Part shown: positions 43,555 through 52,943 of the stretch, in pieces
Layout: each line of letters begins with the position of its first letter
Numbering within the stretch: the first letter of the stretch is position 1
Source of the DNA: Deltaproteobacteria bacterium
GTDB lineage: Bacteria > Myxococcota > Myxococcia > Myxococcales > SZAS-1
Assembly (NCBI GenBank): GCA_018266075.1
Contig: JAFEBB010000050.1
Coordinates: 1 to 56,820, forward strand
Length of the DNA stretch: 56,820 nt
Reading direction: 5' to 3'
The notes under the pieces: model-generated
Told to the model about the DNA's origin: nothing
The model's input: only the letters and a program-made list of their open reading frames with translations
Databases searched by the model: none
Position numbers and translations under genes: made by a program

Positions 43555-43581
43555 CGACCCACTCGGGGCGCGTGGGGTGTC
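43555..43581 (+). promoter_or_regulatory. Candidate ECF sigma promoter upstream of the sigma factor gene
   Basis: CGACCC (43555-43560), 16 bp, then GTGTC (43577-43581), 17 bp before the sigma gene ATG. The same two boxes with the same spacing, and a shared CTCGGGGC in the spacer, occur before the lipoprotein gene at 46365. The layout fits an autoregulated ECF promoter. The ribosome site AGGAG follows. Confidence 0.5.
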
Positions 43582-43598
43582 TTGGGTCAGGAGCCGGG

Positions 43599-44099
43599 AT
43601 GCCCAGAGCGACAGCGGAGGCCGAGCTCGCCCGACTCTACGAGGCCGTGGTGCCGGCCATTCACCGCCGCGCGCTCGCGCTCCTGCGCGACGAGCAGGAG
43701 GCCTGGGACGTGGTGCAGGAGGTCTTTCGCAAGCTGGTGGAGAACCCGCGCGCCTACCGCGGCGACGCGCCGCCGCTGCACTACTGCTACCGGACCGCGA
43801 CGAACCTCTGCCTGAACCGGCTGCGTGCGCTGCGGGTGCGCCGCGCGTCGGAGTCGGCGACGCGGCTCGACGAAGCCCACGAGCCGGCGAGCGTCGAGGC
43901 GCGGAATCTCGTGCTCAGCTTGCTCGACCGGCTCGACGCGCGCGACCTGGAGATCGCCACCCTGCACTTCTTCGATCAGCTCACGCAGGAAGAGATCTCG
44001 GAAGTCGTGGGCCACACGCGCAAGACCGTGGGCCTGGCGCTGCAGCGCGTGCGCGCCGTGGCCCACGCGCTCGCCGACGAAACGAAGGAGAAGCCGTGA
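43599..44099 (+). CDS. ECF (RNA polymerase sigma-70 family) sigma factor
   Basis: 166 aa, the size of ECF sigma factors: region 2 (about 12-82, with AWDVVQEVFRKLVENP and the Arg-rich end of region 2.4) and region 4 (about 108-158, LTQEEISEVVGHTRKTVGLAL) that reads the -35 element. ATG 43599 follows AGGAG at 5-7 bases. The long frame upstream is in the AraC gene and is not coding here. The stop TGA shares its A with the ATG of the anti-sigma gene. Together with the two downstream genes it forms a signalling unit; its own gene carries a candidate target promoter. Confidence 0.92.
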   Translation: MPRATAEAELARLYEAVVPAIHRRALALLRDEQEAWDVVQEVFRKLVENPRAYRGDAPPLHYCYRTATNLCLNRLRALRVRRASESATRLDEAHEPASVEARNLVLSLLDRLDARDLEIATLHFFDQLTQEEISEVVGHTRKTVGLALQRVRAVAHALADETKEKP

Positions 44100-44812
44100 T
44101 GGAACCGCACCTCTCCGACCTGGCGCTGGATCGGCTGGCCCTCGGCGGCGCGACGACGGCGGGCGGCCATTTGGCCACCTGCGACGCGTGTCGAGGCCGG
44201 CTGGAGTCGTTCATGGGCGCGCGGCTGCAGCTCTTGTCCCAGCCGCGGTACCTCGAGCTGCGCGATGCGCTCACGAAGCTTCCTCCGCCGCGGCCGCGGT
44301 GGCCTGCAATCGCTTTCGGGGTAGCACTCGCGGCGTCGATGTTGGTTGCCGTGTGGGGTGTCACGCGCCGAGCGGACGACACGCGGCTCAAGGGCGGACT
44401 CGGACTGCAGATCGCGCTCGACTCGGGAACGCAGCCCTCCGCATTTCGCGCGGGCGAAACCGTGGCGCTGCACCTCTCGGCCGCGGGGCATGCCTACGCG
44501 CTGGTGATGGGGGTCGACGGGCAAGGCAACGTGCAGCAGCTCTGGCCACCGCGCGCTGCCGCGAGCGGCCCTGCACCCCACGGCGACGGAGCCCGGCTCG
44601 ACCCCAGCTTCCGCGTCACGCCGGGCGATATGCAGCTCTGGAGCTTTTTCTCCGATTCGCCGATCTCCTCGGCCGACGCCGCCCGTGCCATGGTGGCGGC
44701 CGTCGACCGGACGCGCACCCTCGGCGCCTCGGCCCTCGACGCCATTCCGGAGCCCATTCCCGGCGAGGCGGGTCGAGCCCAGGCGCGGCTGCGCGTGGAG
44801 GCAGGGCCATGA
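44099..44812 (+). CDS. Zinc-binding anti-sigma factor with periplasmic DUF4384-like domain
   Basis: 237 aa. Zinc anti-sigma motif His24-x3-Cys28-x2-Cys31 (GGHLATCDACRGRL), one membrane helix (about 68-88, PAIAFGVALAASMLVAVWG) and a periplasmic C-terminal domain (about 100-237) with ALHLSAAGHAYALVMGVDG and VQQLWPP, which resembles DUF4384, a domain often found with bacterial caspase-like proteins. It should hold the sigma factor at the membrane until a signal acts on the periplasmic domain. Coupled at both ends: TGATG with the sigma gene and ATGA with the caspase gene. Confidence 0.85.
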   Translation: MEPHLSDLALDRLALGGATTAGGHLATCDACRGRLESFMGARLQLLSQPRYLELRDALTKLPPPRPRWPAIAFGVALAASMLVAVWGVTRRADDTRLKGGLGLQIALDSGTQPSAFRAGETVALHLSAAGHAYALVMGVDGQGNVQQLWPPRAAASGPAPHGDGARLDPSFRVTPGDMQLWSFFSDSPISSADAARAMVAAVDRTRTLGASALDAIPEPIPGEAGRAQARLRVEAGP

Positions 44813-46335
44813 AGCAGCTTCTTCTCGCGACGCTCCTTGGACTGGCTTGGAACGCCACCGCTCGAGCGGAGCCGCGGCGGTTCGCACTCGTCGTCGGCGC
44901 GAATGGGGGCGACGCCGACGAGCTGCCCCTGCGCTACGCCACCGCCGACGCCCAGCGCGTGCGCGACGCGCTCGTCGACGTGGGCGGCGTGCGCGCCGAG
45001 GACGTGCGATTGCTCGCGGATCCCTCCGCCGACGAGGTGATCGCCGCGCTCGGGCAGCTCGAGGCCAAGCTGCGCGCGCACGCGACGCCGGGCGATCAGC
45101 TCGTGGTCTACGCGTCGGGTCACGCGGACTCCGGCGCGCTGCACCTGGGCGGCTCGCGGCTACCGCTGCACACGCTCACCGAGTTCATGCGCCAGGTGCC
45201 GGCCAGCGTGGCGCTGCTCATCCTCGACTCGTGTCGATCGGGTTCGGCCACGCACGTGAAGGGCCTCGAGCCCATCGAAGGCACGCGCGTGAACGTGGAG
45301 CTGCCGGATGTGAACGGCCGCGTGATCATCGGCTCGTCGGGGCCCGAGGAGTACGCGCAGGAGTCCGACGCGCTGCAGGGCTCGTTCTTCACCCACCACC
45401 TGCTCGCAGGCCTGCGCGGCGCGGCGGATGCGTCGCACGACGGCGTGGTCACGCTGCAGGAGGCGTACAGCTACGCGTACGCGCTCACCGTCGAGTCCAC
45501 GTTCGGCACGCGCGGTGGTGTGCAGCATCCGAGCTACAGCGTCGACCTTCATGGCGAAGGCGATCTCGTCCTCAGCGAGCCCGTGCACGCGCGCGGAAAG
45601 TTGCGGCTCGCGGTGGCCGCGCCGGGCGAGTGGCTGGTCTACACCGCGGGCTCGCGCAGCATCGTGGGCCAGTTCGAGAAGCCCGAGGGCGAGACGCTGC
45701 TCGCCGTCGCGCCGGGCACCTACCGCGTTCTCGAGCGCACCGGCACCGGCTACCTGGAGCAGGTGGTGACGGTGCCCGAGGGCGGGGAGGCGCTCATTCA
45801 CGAGGACGCGCTGGGGCCGAGCTCGTTCGTGCCCACCAACAGCAAGGGCGGCGCGACCACGATCTCGCTCGCGCTCGGCGGCAGCGTGGGCTCGGCGGCC
45901 ACGAGCGATGTGCCGATGACGGGCGGTGTCGCCATCTGGGGCGCGTACGAGCATCCCCTCGGCTTGCGGCTCGCGGTGATCGACGCGGATCTCGCGGTGC
46001 GCACGGCGACCGCTTCGCGAAATCTGAGCTACCGCGAGGAGTCGCTCGAGCTTCGCGTGGGGCCAGGCGTGCAGATGCGGCGCGGGCCGCTGACGCTCTC
46101 GGTCGCGTTGATGGCGGGCGAGGCGATGGTGCGCGAGGCCGATCTCGCGGGCGACTCGGGCGCGCCGAGCTTTGCGCCGGAATTGGGGCTCTCGCCGCGG
46201 CTACGGCTGACGATCATGCGACCGGTGGAGTTGGCCATCGCGGGCTTCGCCGGCGCGGAGGACGTGCGCACCGATGAAGGCCGCTTCGTGCGCTTCCGAG
46301 GCGATCTGCAGCTCGGCGTGGGGTTCGCGCTCTGA
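44809..46335 (+). CDS. Exported caspase-family (C14) peptidase with C-terminal beta-barrel-like domain
   Basis: 508 aa. Signal peptide (MKQLLLATLLGLAWNATARA). Residues 22-255 are a caspase-like p20 fold: RRFALVVGANGG, catalytic His105 in YASGHADSGA and catalytic Cys142 in LLILDSCRSGS, both present. About 265-345 is a beta-sandwich region (APGTYRVLERTGTGYLEQVV), and 350-508 is a run of alternating strands (for example GVAIWGAYEHPLGLRLAVID) ending LQLGVGFAL, consistent with an outer-membrane barrel. Thus a possibly envelope-anchored protease in an operon with the sigma and anti-sigma genes. A likely role is signal-dependent cleavage of envelope proteins, or of the anti-sigma factor; this is inference. 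Confidence 0.87.
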   Translation: MKQLLLATLLGLAWNATARAEPRRFALVVGANGGDADELPLRYATADAQRVRDALVDVGGVRAEDVRLLADPSADEVIAALGQLEAKLRAHATPGDQLVVYASGHADSGALHLGGSRLPLHTLTEFMRQVPASVALLILDSCRSGSATHVKGLEPIEGTRVNVELPDVNGRVIIGSSGPEEYAQESDALQGSFFTHHLLAGLRGAADASHDGVVTLQEAYSYAYALTVESTFGTRGGVQHPSYSVDLHGEGDLVLSEPVHARGKLRLAVAAPGEWLVYTAGSRSIVGQFEKPEGETLLAVAPGTYRVLERTGTGYLEQVVTVPEGGEALIHEDALGPSSFVPTNSKGGATTISLALGGSVGSAATSDVPMTGGVAIWGAYEHPLGLRLAVIDADLAVRTATASRNLSYREESLELRVGPGVQMRRGPLTLSVALMAGEAMVREADLAGDSGAPSFAPELGLSPRLRLTIMRPVELAIAGFAGAEDVRTDEGRFVRFRGDLQLGVGFAL

Positions 46336-46337
46336 GG

Positions 46338-46364
46338 CGACCCACGACTCGGGGCTCGGGTGTC
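46338..46364 (+). promoter_or_regulatory. Second copy of the candidate ECF promoter, before the FG-GAP lipoprotein operon
   Basis: CGACCC (46338-46343), 16 bp, GTGTC (46360-46364). It matches the element before the sigma gene in both boxes and spacing. GTGTC abuts the ATG at 46365, so a transcript starting 6-10 bp later would begin near the in-frame ATG at 46374 and be nearly leaderless. Confidence 0.5.
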
Positions 46365-48539
46365 ATGAGCACGATGCCTTCGCGAACGACACTCTGCGGC
46401 GCTGCGCTTCTGCTCGTCGTCGGTTGTGGCCACCGGCTCCAGGAGTCGGCGCCCCCCGCCACGCCCGCACCCGGGAACCAGCAACAAAACATTTCGGTTA
46501 ACGGCTCCGTGGAGAAGGGGCCATTCGTGCTGGGCTCGTCGATCACCGTCTCGGCCCTGGATGCGAGCGCCAACCCCACCGGCCAGGTCTTCAAGACACA
46601 GACCACCGACGATCTGGGCCAGTTCTCGCTCACGGTGGCCTACTCCGGCCCGGTGGGCGTCGCGGCCCAGGGCTACTACTTCGACGAGCTCGCCAGCAGC
46701 GTCTCGACCTCCACGCTCACGCTGCAAGGCATCGGCGCGCTGCCCGCCTCGGGCTCGGCGCAGCTGAACGTGAACGTGCTCACCCACCTCGAGTCCGCCC
46801 GCGTGGCGACCTTGATGGCCGCGGGCAGCTCCGTCGACGACGCAAGCGCGCAGGCGCAAACCGAGCTCGTGCACGCTCTCGGCCTCGGGCCCGCGGGGTT
46901 CACGCTCTCCCGACCCGCCACCGCGACCAGCCTCGCCGGCGGCAACACGCCGGACGACGCGTACCTGCTCTCGGTCTCGCTGCTCTTCCTGCAGATCGCC
47001 ACCGACGCAGCCGGCTCGGCAGATCAACTCCCCGCCACGCTCCAGGTGACGCTCAACGACGCGCGCAACGCGTTCGCCAGCGCGGGCCAACTCCCGAGCG
47101 ACACGGTGACCGCCCTGCGCAACGCGCAGACGAAGATCGATCCCGACGAGATCCGCGCTGCGCTCAGCGCGCGCTACGAAGCGAGCAGCGGCTTCGCAAT
47201 CCCCGATGTGGACGAGATCCTCGACAGCGATCTCGACGGCGTGCCCAACGACGACGACGCCTGTCCGCTGACCGCGAGCGACGGCGGCGGCGCAGCAAAC
47301 GGCGTGTGCAGCGCTCGGCACATGACCACGGGTGGCGTGACCTTCGAAATGGGCGGCGTGATCCTGCTGATCGGCGACTTCGACAACGACGGCACCGCAG
47401 ATCTCGTTCAAGGAGAGCTCTGGGGCGGCGGCACCTTCTGGCACGGCCTCGGCCAGGGCGCGATGGGCCAACCCACGGCCACCGTGAACGAGCAGTTCCA
47501 GGGCCAGAGCACTGCGGATGTCGACGGCGACGGCAAGCTCGATCTCGTAGGCATCGGCAACTACGACCTCACCGCGAACCTCCCGCAGTACGCCGCGTGG
47601 GCGCCGGGGTTCGGCGACGGCGGCTTCGGCCCGCCCCAAACGATGATCGAGCCGAACGTGCTCTTGCCCACGCCCGACGTCGACGGCGGCATGGCCACCT
47701 ACGGCTGCCTCTACGCACCAGTAGCCGTCGACCTCAATGGCGACGGTCGCCTCGATGTGTTGTCCAAGTGCCAAGAGCTCGACCTGTGGATCTACGAGCC
47801 CACGGCGGCGCTCGTGGCCCTGCAGCTCGCGGACGGCGGCTTCGGGCCGCCCACCAAGCTCGACCTGCCCACCGCGATCGACATCCGCACCCTCAACACC
47901 GGCGACTTCGACGGCGATGGTCACCAGGACCTGCTCATCGGCTCCTGCGTGGGCCCGACCTGCGGAAACGAGAGCGGCTCACCGGGCTGGAACCCGACGA
48001 GCGGGCTCTGGCTCGCGCACGGCCACGGCGACGGCACGTTCACCATCGAGTCGCTCACCTTCCCGATGGGCGAGACCTTCCTCGACGTGCTCCCGAGCGA
48101 CGTGAACGGCGATGGCAAGCCGGACCTCGTGGTGCGAACCACGGACGACAACGACTTCGACGTGATCGACGTCCTCCTCAACGACGGCGCCGGTCACTTC
48201 TCCGCGGCCGCCGCGTACCACTTCGCGCCACAGGGCCTGCGCACGGGGGCGCTCCCCGGCGTCTTTGACATCACCGGCGACGGCGTCGTGGATCTCATCT
48301 ACATCGACGGGACCGGCCTCACCGTTTTCCCCGGGCTCTCGAACGGCTGGGGGCCTGCGCAGCGCGGTCCGATCTTCGGGCAGTTCCAGAACCAGATTGG
48401 CAGCCTCGCCATCGGCGACCTCGACGGCGATGGCCACACCGACTTCGCTGCGACGCTGAACCCTCTGCCCAACGCCGCCCCGGCCACCGCCGGGCTGCTC
48501 ACCGTCATCGTGAATCACGCAGGCTGGCACACCTGGTAG
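46365..48539 (+). CDS. FG-GAP/VCBS repeat lipoprotein, paralogue 1 of 3
   Basis: 724 aa. Lipoprotein signal ending VVGC (Cys21 if starting at 46365), followed by GHRLQESAP as in both downstream paralogues. About 45-130 is a beta domain (NISVNGSVEKGPFVLGSSIT, SGPVGVAAQGYYFDEL) resembling carboxypeptidase-regulatory folds; 135-280 is helical; DSDLDGVPNDDDACPL (about 285-300) is a thrombospondin type 3-like calcium site; the rest contains FG-GAP/VCBS repeats with DFDNDGTADLV, DVDGDGKLDLV, DLNGDGRLDV and DFDGDGHQDLL, a calcium-binding beta-propeller pattern. Probably a surface adhesin or ligand binder. If the promoter at 46338 is used, ATG 46374 (three codons in) may be the true start. Confidence 0.85.
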   Translation: MSTMPSRTTLCGAALLLVVGCGHRLQESAPPATPAPGNQQQNISVNGSVEKGPFVLGSSITVSALDASANPTGQVFKTQTTDDLGQFSLTVAYSGPVGVAAQGYYFDELASSVSTSTLTLQGIGALPASGSAQLNVNVLTHLESARVATLMAAGSSVDDASAQAQTELVHALGLGPAGFTLSRPATATSLAGGNTPDDAYLLSVSLLFLQIATDAAGSADQLPATLQVTLNDARNAFASAGQLPSDTVTALRNAQTKIDPDEIRAALSARYEASSGFAIPDVDEILDSDLDGVPNDDDACPLTASDGGGAANGVCSARHMTTGGVTFEMGGVILLIGDFDNDGTADLVQGELWGGGTFWHGLGQGAMGQPTATVNEQFQGQSTADVDGDGKLDLVGIGNYDLTANLPQYAAWAPGFGDGGFGPPQTMIEPNVLLPTPDVDGGMATYGCLYAPVAVDLNGDGRLDVLSKCQELDLWIYEPTAALVALQLADGGFGPPTKLDLPTAIDIRTLNTGDFDGDGHQDLLIGSCVGPTCGNESGSPGWNPTSGLWLAHGHGDGTFTIESLTFPMGETFLDVLPSDVNGDGKPDLVVRTTDDNDFDVIDVLLNDGAGHFSAAAAYHFAPQGLRTGALPGVFDITGDGVVDLIYIDGTGLTVFPGLSNGWGPAQRGPIFGQFQNQIGSLAIGDLDGDGHTDFAATLNPLPNAAPATAGLLTVIVNHAGWHTW

Positions 48540-48554
48540 CGCCTGGAGATCGCC

Positions 48555-50717
48555 ATGAAATCGACCGCCACCCTCCTCGCGGCGCTCTTGCTCCTGGCCG
48601 GCTGTGGGCACCGCCTCCAGGAGTCGGCGCCCACGACCAGCACCACCGGCGGCTCCACTGGAGGGACGCAAGCAAACATTTTGGTTAAGGGCTCCGTCGA
48701 GGAGGGCCCGTTCGTGCTCGGCTCCTCGATCACGGTTTCGGAGATCGACGCGACCGGCAACCCCACCGGCGCGACGTTCAACGCCCAGACCACCGATGAC
48801 CTCGGGCAGTTCTCCGTCTCCGTCGCCTATTCCGGACCGGTGAGCATCGAGGCGCAGGGCTACTACTTCGACGAGCTCGCGGGAGACGTTTCCACCTCGA
48901 CGCTGACGCTGCAGGGCATCGGTGCCCTGCCCACCTCGGGCTCGGCGCAGGTGAACGTGAACGTGCTCACCCACCTCATCTCCGGTCGGGTCACGCACCT
49001 CATGGCCGCCGGGCAGACGGTCCAGGCAGCGAGCGCGCAGGCCCAGGCCGAGCTGGTGACGGCGCTGGGCCTCGGCGGCGCTGGGTTCACCCTCAGCGAA
49101 CCCGCGACCACCACCAGCCTCGCTGCCGGCAACACGCCCGACGATGCGTACCTGCTGGCCGTGTCCGTCCTCTTCATGCAGGTGGCGAGGACCAACGCCG
49201 GCGCAGACCAGGTCACTGCCACCTTGCAGGAGGGCCTCAACAACGCCCGCGCCGCCTTCGCGAGCGACGGCACGCTCCCCAGCGACACCGTGAACGCCCT
49301 GCATCAGGCGGAGACGGTGGTCGAGCCGGACGCGATCCGCGCGGCCCTCAGCACGCGCTACGCCGCGTCGGTCAGCGGCTGCGCGGTGCCCAACGTCGAC
49401 GAGATCCTCGACAGCGATCTCGACGGCGTCCCCAACGCGCTCGACGCCTGCCCCCTCGTGGCGAGCGACGGCGGCGCGGCGAACGGCATCTGCAGCTACC
49501 GCCACAGCACCGGCCCGGCGACCTGGCCCAACGGAAGCGCGTGGTTCGTCATCGGCGACTTCGACGGCGACGGGACGCCCGACATCGTCCAGTCCATGTT
49601 CACCGGCGGCGGCACGTTCTGGCACGGGCTCGGCGGCGGGACGATGGCCGCGCCGACCTCCACCGTGACCGAGAACTTCATCGGCTACGCGGCCGCGGAC
49701 GTCGATGGCGATGGCAAGCTGGACTTGCTTGGCTCCGGCAACCTCAGCCTCACCACCATCCTCCCCCAGTACGCCGCGTGGGTTCCCGGCTTCGGCGACG
49801 GCGGCTTCGGCGACATGCAGGCGGTGATTCCCACCAACGTGGCCCTGCCCTCGCCGGACGCCGATGGCGGCGTGGGCACCTTCCAGTGCAGCGGCCGCTT
49901 TCAGCTCGCGGACCTCGACGGCGACGGCCGCCAGGACGCGGTCGCGCCCTGCACCGAGAACGAAGACCTTGCCACACAGGCCAACGCCGTCCTCATTGCC
50001 ATGCGGCTCGGCGACGGCGGGTTCGATGTTCCCACGCGCCTCGATCTTCCCATCGACATCGCGGTCAGCGGTGTGGACATCGCCGACTTCGACGGCGACG
50101 GGAAGATCGACATCGTGGTGGGTTCATGCGGAAACGAGGGCTGCGGCGGTGAAGTGGGCAGCTGGTGGACGCCCTCGGGCGGCCTCTGGATCGCCCGCGG
50201 CCACGGCGACGGAACCTTCACCGTCGAGGCGCTCACCACGGCGCTCGGCCCGATCTACCCGAACCTGCCGATGGCGGACGTGAACGGCGACGGCAAGCCC
50301 GACCTGGTGGTGGGCTACGAGACCACCGCCGGACCGAGCGCCATCGACGTCCTCATCAACGACGGCACGGGCCACTTCGCAGTCGACGGCGCGTACCACC
50401 TCGAAGGCATTCCAGAGCTCAGCTACAACCCCGTGCCTCAGCTCTACGACTTCACCGGCGATGGCAGACTCGATCTCACGCTGGGACTCACCGTGATCCC
50501 ATCTCAGCCGGGCGGCTGGGGAACGCCGCAGTCCATCGTGATCAGCGAGCAGTCCACTCCCGGCGGCGGCTACTTTGCCTTCGCGGTGGGCGACCTCGAC
50601 GGCGATGGCCACCCCGACCTCGCGGGCCTCATGGAGGTCACGAGCCCGGGCCAGACCGGTTCGACGCCGGAGCTGATCACCGTCGTCGTGAACCCCGCAG
50701 GCTGGCACAGCTGGTAG
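48555..50717 (+). CDS. FG-GAP/VCBS repeat lipoprotein, paralogue 2 of 3
   Basis: 720 aa with the same domain order as its neighbours: signal MKSTATLLAALLLLAGC (Cys17) then GHRLQESAP, a Thr/Ser/Gly linker, the VKGSVEEGPFVLGSSIT beta domain, helical middle, TSP3-like DSDLDGVPNALDACPL, and FG-GAP motifs (DFDGDGTPDIV, DVDGDGKLDLL, DLDGDGRQDAV, DFDGDGKIDIV, DVNGDGKPDLV, DLDGDGHPDLA). It ends VVNPAGWHSW, close to the GWHTW and GWHSW ends of the other two. The 15-bp spacer before it (with GGAG) matches the spacer before paralogue 3, so the unit was copied in tandem. Confidence 0.87.
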   Translation: MKSTATLLAALLLLAGCGHRLQESAPTTSTTGGSTGGTQANILVKGSVEEGPFVLGSSITVSEIDATGNPTGATFNAQTTDDLGQFSVSVAYSGPVSIEAQGYYFDELAGDVSTSTLTLQGIGALPTSGSAQVNVNVLTHLISGRVTHLMAAGQTVQAASAQAQAELVTALGLGGAGFTLSEPATTTSLAAGNTPDDAYLLAVSVLFMQVARTNAGADQVTATLQEGLNNARAAFASDGTLPSDTVNALHQAETVVEPDAIRAALSTRYAASVSGCAVPNVDEILDSDLDGVPNALDACPLVASDGGAANGICSYRHSTGPATWPNGSAWFVIGDFDGDGTPDIVQSMFTGGGTFWHGLGGGTMAAPTSTVTENFIGYAAADVDGDGKLDLLGSGNLSLTTILPQYAAWVPGFGDGGFGDMQAVIPTNVALPSPDADGGVGTFQCSGRFQLADLDGDGRQDAVAPCTENEDLATQANAVLIAMRLGDGGFDVPTRLDLPIDIAVSGVDIADFDGDGKIDIVVGSCGNEGCGGEVGSWWTPSGGLWIARGHGDGTFTVEALTTALGPIYPNLPMADVNGDGKPDLVVGYETTAGPSAIDVLINDGTGHFAVDGAYHLEGIPELSYNPVPQLYDFTGDGRLDLTLGLTVIPSQPGGWGTPQSIVISEQSTPGGGYFAFAVGDLDGDGHPDLAGLMEVTSPGQTGSTPELITVVVNPAGWHSW

Positions 50718-50732
50718 CGCCGGGACCTCGCC

Positions 50733-52943
50733 ATGAAATCGACCTCGACCGCTTTCGCAGCGCTGCTGCTCCTCGCCGGCTGCGGGCACCGCCTGCAGGA
50801 ATCGGCGCCGCCCACCACCGGCTCCGGCAGCACCAGCGGCACCACGACCACCACCGGCGGCTCCACGGGTGGGACGCAACCAAACATTTCGGTTAACGGC
50901 GCGGTCGAGAAGGGCCCGTTCGTGCTCGGCTCCACGATCACCCTCTCGGCCATCGACGCGAGCGGCAACCCCACGGGCGCCACCTTCGACACCCAGACCA
51001 CCGACGATCTCGGCCAGTTCTCGCTCTCGGTGGCCTACTCGGGACCGGTGAGCGTCGAGGCGCAGGGCTACTACTTCGACGAGCTCGAAGGCGCCGTCTC
51101 GACGTCCACGCTGACCCTGCAGGGCTTCGGCGCGCTTCCCGCGTCGGGCTCGGCGCAGCTCAACGTGAACGTGCTCACCCACCTCGAGTCCGCGCGCGTG
51201 ACGGCCTTGATGGCTTCGGGAAAGTCCCTCGAGGACGCGAGCGCGCAGGCGCAGACCGAGCTGGTGGGCTCACTCGAACTCGGCGGCGCGGGCTTCACGC
51301 TCAGTGAACCAGCCACCGCGGCGAGCCTCGCGGGCGGCGACAACGTCGGCGACGCGTACCTGCTCACGGTCTCGCTGCTGTTCATGCAGTTCGCGCTCGA
51401 CAACGCGTCGGCTGCGGACCAGGTCCCGGCGGTCCTTCAGGAGCTGCTCAACAACGCGCGCGCGGCGTTTGCGACCTCGGGCCAGCTGCCGTCGGCCACG
51501 GTCGCGGCGCTGCAACGCGCGCAGGCCAAGATCGATCCGTACCTGGTGCGGCTGGCGCTGGAGGCGCGCTACGGCGCGACCAGCGGCTTCGTCGTCCCGG
51601 ACATCGACCAGGTCCTCGACAGCGATCTCGACGGCGTTCCCAACGCGCTGGACAACTGTCCGCTCGTGCCCAATCCGGATGGCGGCGCCGTGCCTGGCGT
51701 CTGCGACTACCAGCGCTCGGAGGCCGCCAATGCGCCCAGTTCGCAACCCACCTACGCGCTCTTCATCGGCGACATCGACGGCGACGGCCGCGCCGATGTG
51801 CTCAACGCCGACTTCAGCTACGGCGGGAGCCTCTGGACGGGGCTCGGTGACGGCGGCCTCTCCGCGGGGCAGGACCTCGGCACCATGAACTTCTACGGCT
51901 CGGGCCTCGTGGACGTCGATGGCGACGGGAAGCTCGACGTCACGGGTATGGCGGGCTTCGGGCCATCGCTGCCGCCAGAGAGCAACTACGCGGGCTGGCT
52001 GAAGGGTTACGGCGACGGTGGGTTCTCGACGCCGAACACCATCATTGGCGCGCACTTCCCGATGCACTCGCTCATGGGCGACGCGGGCATGACCACGTTC
52101 AGCTGCGCGAACGCCGAGTTCGCCGACTTGAACGCCGACGGTCGCCTCGACGCGATCGTGCCCTGCCAGGACGTCGCTTACGGCCCCAACGGCTTCACCA
52201 CGGTGATGATCGCCCTGCAACAGTCGGATGGCACCTTCGCGGCGCCGTCGATGCTCGGACTGCCGGGCGACATCGAGGTGAACTCGATGAACGTCGGTGA
52301 CTTCGACGGCGATGGGAAGACCGACGTCCTGGTCTCGTCGTGCGTCGACCCAGCCACGTGTCACTACGCGCTGATGTCGTGGAGTCCCACGGGTGGCGTC
52401 TGGCTGGCGCGCGGCCAGGGCGACGGCACATTCGTGGTCGATCAGGTGATGCCCGCGACCGACGGCTTGGCGGTCGTCGCCGTTGCGGATGTCGACGGCG
52501 ACGGCAACCCCGACCTCGTGAGCGGCACCGGTGGAGGCAACATGGCGCAAGCCGACGTGTACCTCGGCGACGGCACCGGACACTTCAGCGTCGCGTCCGC
52601 CTACCACCTCGACGACATGGCCTCAGCGCCCTTCGCCGCCGCGGACGTCACCGGTGACGGCAAGCTCGATCTGGTGATCGTCGGCAACGTCAACATCACG
52701 AGTCACGGGGAGGACGTCCCGAGCCAGGTCGTCGAGATCATCCCCGGCACCGGAACCGGCTGGGGAACGCCGCAGACGCTCGCCGCCGAGCCAGACATCG
52801 ACTTCATGGGCGAAGCCCTGGGCGATCTCGACGGACACGGCCACACCGACATCGTCGTGGACATCCAAGCATTCAACGCGTTCGGGCCGGCTTCAGCGCT
52901 CGAGGTCTATCGCGTCAACGTGCCCGGCTGGCACAGCTGGTAG
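50733..52943 (+). CDS. FG-GAP/VCBS repeat lipoprotein, paralogue 3 of 3
   Basis: 736 aa. Signal MKSTSTAFAALLLLAGC (Cys17) and GHRLQESAP, with the longest Gly/Ser/Thr linker of the three, then the VNGAVEKGPFVLGSTIT domain, helical middle, DSDLDGVPNALDNCPLVP and FG-GAP motifs (DIDGDGRADVL, DVDGDGKLDVT, DLNADGRLDAI, DFDGDGKTDVL, DVDGDGNPDLV). Ends VNVPGWHSW. The N-terminal 280 residues are more alike among the three than the propeller part, where loops differ in length; this suggests that a common anchor and stalk carry diversified binding faces. Last gene of the operon; 67 bp before the carboxylase gene. Confidence 0.87.
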   Translation: MKSTSTAFAALLLLAGCGHRLQESAPPTTGSGSTSGTTTTTGGSTGGTQPNISVNGAVEKGPFVLGSTITLSAIDASGNPTGATFDTQTTDDLGQFSLSVAYSGPVSVEAQGYYFDELEGAVSTSTLTLQGFGALPASGSAQLNVNVLTHLESARVTALMASGKSLEDASAQAQTELVGSLELGGAGFTLSEPATAASLAGGDNVGDAYLLTVSLLFMQFALDNASAADQVPAVLQELLNNARAAFATSGQLPSATVAALQRAQAKIDPYLVRLALEARYGATSGFVVPDIDQVLDSDLDGVPNALDNCPLVPNPDGGAVPGVCDYQRSEAANAPSSQPTYALFIGDIDGDGRADVLNADFSYGGSLWTGLGDGGLSAGQDLGTMNFYGSGLVDVDGDGKLDVTGMAGFGPSLPPESNYAGWLKGYGDGGFSTPNTIIGAHFPMHSLMGDAGMTTFSCANAEFADLNADGRLDAIVPCQDVAYGPNGFTTVMIALQQSDGTFAAPSMLGLPGDIEVNSMNVGDFDGDGKTDVLVSSCVDPATCHYALMSWSPTGGVWLARGQGDGTFVVDQVMPATDGLAVVAVADVDGDGNPDLVSGTGGGNMAQADVYLGDGTGHFSVASAYHLDDMASAPFAAADVTGDGKLDLVIVGNVNITSHGEDVPSQVVEIIPGTGTGWGTPQTLAAEPDIDFMGEALGDLDGHGHTDIVVDIQAFNAFGPASALEVYRVNVPGWHSW

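Follow-up and report, generated by a model that had tools for sequence, protein, structure and literature searches.

The window, that is, the whole stretch of 56,820 nucleotides that was analysed, carries on its forward strand genes for a sigma factor, an anti-sigma factor and a caspase-family protein, whose starts and stops overlap, followed by three lipoprotein genes. The sigma factor (43599–44099) is a protein of 166 amino acids, assigned by Pfam (Sigma70_r2, 2.6e-11, and Sigma70_r4_2, 7.8e-07, both above the Pfam cut-offs) and by TIGR02937 (1.3e-19). It is short and has regions 2 and 4 with no region 3, as in the ECF type, and its region 4.2 is diverged, reading GHTRKT versus G[LV]SRKT in the family. 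The second gene (44099–44812), adjacent to that of the sigma factor, encodes a membrane anti-sigma factor of the ZAS type, with the motif H-x3-C-x2-C in its cytoplasmic domain and a single transmembrane helix; H24, C28, and C31 are invariant in 19 homologs, and inhibition of the sigma factor is its predicted role. In the AF2 model, residues 7–60 are helical, the helix 68–89 spans the membrane, and strands at 102–234 make up a periplasmic beta-sandwich. This domain resembles DUF4384 by a weak match (0.0014, below the cut-off), and a fold search with the model returned weak Ig-like matches only.

The third gene (44809–46335) encodes an exported caspase-family protein that matches Pfam Peptidase_C14 (4e-11) and whose dyad, H105 and C142, is invariant in 25 aligned homologs. 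Both its fold and the His/Cys dyad place it in peptidase family C14. The AF2 model comprises a signal peptide, the caspase domain, a small beta-sandwich and, at the C terminus, eight long antiparallel strands (residues 351–507); in the PDB, the caspase part matched caspase-3 and MALT1, and the barrel matched OmpX, Ail, and OmpA (E about 1e-5 to 3e-6). With its signal peptide and eight antiparallel strands, the protein as modelled has a barrel of the OmpX/OmpA type. Known eight-stranded barrels of this kind have both ends on the periplasmic side, and therefore the protease domain would be located in the periplasm.

The lipoprotein genes are found at 46374–48539, 48555–50717, and 50733–52943, separated by two 15-bp gaps, neither of which contains the promoter element described below. 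The first product matches FG-GAP_3 (2.4e-33), and the second and the third are FG-GAP lipoproteins 61% and 54% identical to it. All three have a signal peptide and a lipobox cysteine near the N terminus (VVGC in the first, LAGC in the other two), as bacterial lipoproteins do. A preliminary description of this DNA had referred to seven components, but those it listed are six: the sigma factor, the anti-sigma factor, the caspase, and the three lipoproteins.

The same description had pointed to a two-part element, CGACCC-N16-GTGTC, before both groups of genes. Both copies are exact, with identical 16-bp spacing (43555–43581 and 46338–46364, forward strand), and no third exact match occurs in the window; 0.09 matches would be expected there, and none of 100 dinucleotide-preserving shuffles reached two. 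The element is also rare in the complete genome, with five exact copies in 7.84 Mb and no match for the reversed control pattern. The only intergenic copies are the two of the window, which lie directly 5' of start codons. The other three (contigs C25, C30, and C39) fall inside open reading frames; that at C39:39002 overlaps the 3' end of its frame and was therefore excluded as a third target of the window sigma factor. The core pattern CCCA-N14-S-GTGTC has 15 matches genome-wide, five of which are at the sigma and lipoprotein starts of the window, C4, and C16, and a looser pattern with the spacing one base off (YCCA-N15-S-GTGTC) gave 85 matches, which are background only. Separately, CCCATCTTGGCCTCAGCAAGGTGTC recurs in G000 at C14:6, C59:6, C60:6, C15:126968, C44:63242, and C125:292; several of these are contig ends, and the sequence is probably a repeat present in multiple copies, at which the assembly broke.

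The upstream copy is the predicted ECF autopromoter, with the -35 CGACCCA and the -10 GTGTC (16 bp from CCC to GTGTC), and the sigma start codon is 17 nt from its -10. The downstream copy, located between the caspase gene and the first lipoprotein gene, has equivalents in relatives and is the predicted promoter of the lipoprotein operon. Its -10 directly adjoins the ATG at 46365, so the lipoprotein transcript would have little or no leader. Translation of the first lipoprotein probably begins at 46374 rather than 46365, because the latter is contiguous with the -10 and would lie ahead of the position, near 46371, where the transcript is expected to begin, and because the signal peptide read from 46374 matches the N termini of the second and third lipoproteins. 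Both spacers contain CTCGGGGC, as had been described, but in different registers (one begins at spacer position 2, the other at position 5), and the full stretch in common is the 9-nt ACTCGGGGC, longer than the octamer; sharing of 9 nt between shuffled spacers has a p of about 0.002. The octamer is absent from relatives. Because the spacers of the orthologous sites are unrelated, it is not part of the recognized element, and the weight given to it in the preliminary description was not borne out.

Operons orthologous to that of the sigma factor, anti-sigma factor, and caspase are found across the Myxococcaceae and relatives, including Myxococcus xanthus strain AM003 (L173). Upstream of their ECF genes the element takes the form TGTCCCA or GTTCCCA-N14-[CG]GTGTC, often followed by CAA, and CGACCC-N16-GTGTC reads as the local variant of an order-wide [GT][TG]TCCCA-N14-[CG]GTGTC. 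Among the 39 loci with enough sequence upstream of the ECF gene, CCC-N16-GTGTC was exact in 37 and had one mismatch in the other two, so that the expected conservation before orthologous operons was indeed found. A footprint sample of 40 non-redundant orthologous loci, 513 kb in all, contains 69 matches to CCCA-N14-SGTGTC, and each other spacing from 6 to 22 gave 0–15 matches; these loci share kinship, and p-values drawn from them do not refer to independent events. Thirty-five of the 69 are before the ECF gene, and 18 are within 100 nt upstream of a strictly defined lipoprotein start, near which 0.9% of random positions fall and at which no other spacing gave a match in the 40 loci. The general form thus recurs before the neighboring lipoprotein genes of relatives as well, with counts that peak sharply at a single spacing. 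The lipoprotein site follows the caspase gene in Myxococcus (M. xanthus AM003 among them), Pyxidicoccus, and Archangium MAGs, and in Corallococcus it belongs to a gene divergent from the ECF gene. Among the targets elsewhere are lipoproteins of the Beta_propel, Ig-like, and vWA types, and some Corallococcus targets are exported proteins. For FG-GAP lipoprotein relatives in G005 and G024, no canonical element was found in the stretch examined.

The -35 bases of the paired sites also vary together. The dinucleotides before CCC at the sigma and lipoprotein sites were TT/TT in five pairs, GT/GT in 14, TT/GT in one, and GT/TT in none (Fisher p=4e-4, uncorrected for the relatedness of the loci); both window sites have GA, and TTGCCCGTTT is common to the two sites of the more distant G005. 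Paired changes of this kind across lineages are as predicted if one sigma factor reads both promoters. No CGACCCA variant was found before an orthologous operon among the relatives compared. In an Anaeromyxobacter-like group (L283, L284, and L285), GACCCA-N14-SGTGTC precedes a distant ECF gene, near which no caspase match was found. In one Corallococcus locus (L204:949–3040, corresponding to G054:C1:459748–461840), three tandem genes for exported products each have the element upstream, and the first product ends in a tail that, by eye, is MYXO-CTERM-like.

The same genome contains a second module on contig C4, with a sigma factor 62% identical to that of the window, an anti-sigma factor, and a caspase. 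Its elements are at 137488, before the sigma gene, and at 140185, just after the caspase gene and 29 nt upstream of a gene for a vWA lipoprotein; a third canonical site outside the window (C16:38053) precedes another lipoprotein gene. The lipoproteins of C4 and C16 and the Corallococcus targets carry C-x-x-P-L-Y-E right after the lipid cysteine, possibly a sorting or processing signal. In this genome the signature has three lipoprotein matches, all in the regulon, and a fourth match (C14) is not a lipoprotein. The signature was rejected as a general sorting signal, since it is absent from the Myxococcus targets and therefore is not a requirement. In the regulon lipoproteins at L036:8739–11213, L220:605–1588, and L210:201–728, it is mostly followed by a low-complexity linker.

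Because each of the two transcription units has the two-part element, with its constant spacing, in front of it, we read them as a shared regulon, in agreement with the preliminary proposal that the sigma factor drives its own operon and the three lipoproteins. The rarity of the element, its conservation in orthologs at one spacing, and the covariation of the -35 strongly support that proposal, and the arrangement of element, sigma module, and lipoproteins recurs in the Myxococcaceae and relatives with different lipoproteins. Very probably, therefore, the locus is an autoregulated ECF/anti-sigma module whose regulon consists of its own operon (sigma factor, anti-sigma factor, and exported caspase) and the adjacent three-gene lipoprotein operon. 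Positive autoregulation of the sigma factor is predicted, and we infer direct activation of the lipoprotein operon from the arrangement of sites and genes.

Were the elements instead chance matches in GC-rich DNA, with the genes under a housekeeping sigma factor or the upstream AraC-type regulator, their moderate scores on a matrix built from orthologs only would find an explanation: in the window the lipoprotein site ranks first and the ECF site third, one unrelated position outscoring the latter. However, this ranking reflects the variant -35 of both sites (CGACCCA) and their lack of a CAA tail, and the spike at a single spacing, the placement before both ECF and lipoprotein genes across about 40 loci, and the -35 covariation make a chance origin extremely improbable. 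The caspase stop (46335) and the ATG at 46365 are only 29 bp apart, which would allow read-through, and the 9 nt common to the spacers, above what shuffles give, would fit a duplication; the lipoprotein genes might thus form the far end of a single long operon under the sigma factor, with the second element the non-functional relic of a duplicated promoter. But relatives keep the second element with diverged spacers and at variable distances from the lipoprotein genes, and read-through is impossible in Corallococcus, where the lipoprotein gene is divergent, so we hold a single long operon to be quite improbable.

The window promoters could also be driven by the paralogous sigma factor of C4, or by both sigma factors, giving two modules with one regulon, as the identity of the two proteins and the agreement of the -10 elements of both modules would permit. 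The -35 elements differ, however, being CGACCCA at the window sites and TTCCCA at those of C4 and C16, and this difference, together with the diverged region 4.2 of the window sigma factor, argues for insulated regulons and leaves such sharing unlikely.

Under the autoregulated module, a periplasmic signal would act on the beta-sandwich domain of the anti-sigma factor, upon which the zinc-binding-type cytoplasmic domain would release the sigma factor, and the freed sigma factor would raise expression of both its own operon and that of the lipoproteins. The C-terminal barrel would anchor the caspase in the outer membrane and leave its protease domain facing the periplasm, so that the enzyme could process the lipoproteins induced with it or provide feedback by cutting the anti-sigma factor. 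A role in adhesion or envelope remodelling is suggested by the kinds of lipoprotein that recur (FG-GAP or Beta_propel propellers, Ig-like, and vWA). A fuller proposal, which we regard as doubtful but conceivable, is a myxobacterial envelope system in which one sigma factor co-induces an outer-membrane-anchored periplasmic caspase and the lipoproteins, the caspase acts on the lipoproteins (several with C-x-x-P-L-Y-E) or on the anti-sigma factor, and a single genome has two insulated copies whose sigma factors and promoters have co-diverged.

In gene order, ZAS motif, single transmembrane helix, predicted positive autoregulation, and fixed promoter spacing, the module is like the canonical ECF factors with a membrane ZAS anti-sigma factor. 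Unlike these, it has the CCCA-N14-SGTGTC element, an exported caspase as its third gene, and lipoproteins as its main targets. The caspase domain matches the EACC1-associated caspase family (NF047832) at 1.3e-18, with 67.3 bits versus a cut-off of 140; unlike that family, the window protein is exported and has an OmpX-like barrel, and no EACC1 partner was identified. Predicted operons that join sigma-70 factors and metacaspases were described in M. xanthus and other Deltaproteobacteria (Asplund-Samuelsson et al. 2012; PMC3501461), a sigma factor sharing the operon with four of the five metacaspases of M. xanthus DK1622, and also in Anaeromyxobacter, Haliangium, Sorangium, and Fibrobacter. The likeness lies in the sigma and (meta)caspase genes of one predicted operon; in the parts of that paper available to us, programmed cell death was the function speculated upon, and no promoter, anti-sigma factor, lipoprotein regulon, or outer-membrane barrel is given. 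In the literature searched, with partial coverage and without the main ECF classification paper, we came across no account of the promoter, of the lipoprotein regulon, or of the caspase-barrel architecture. A bacterial caspase thereby gains a testable context, with a defined promoter and sigma factor, a predicted outer-membrane anchor, and co-regulated lipoproteins, and the question of its function shifts from programmed cell death to the biology of the envelope and the cell surface. The sigma recognition helix and the promoters have drifted in step, which also offers a case for studying how duplicated ECF regulons become insulated.

The lipoproteins downstream of the C4 module match CglB, the vWA lipoprotein of gliding motility (NF033757), at 3.7e-42, with scores of 144.8 and 57.2 bits that are below the 200-bit cut-off. 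CglB proper was rejected as a target of the regulon, since the true CglB genes are elsewhere and, the C4 locus excepted, their loci are without the element. A further CglB-like vWA reading frame (G000:C19:100884–101720) contains one in-frame TGA and is possibly a pseudogene.
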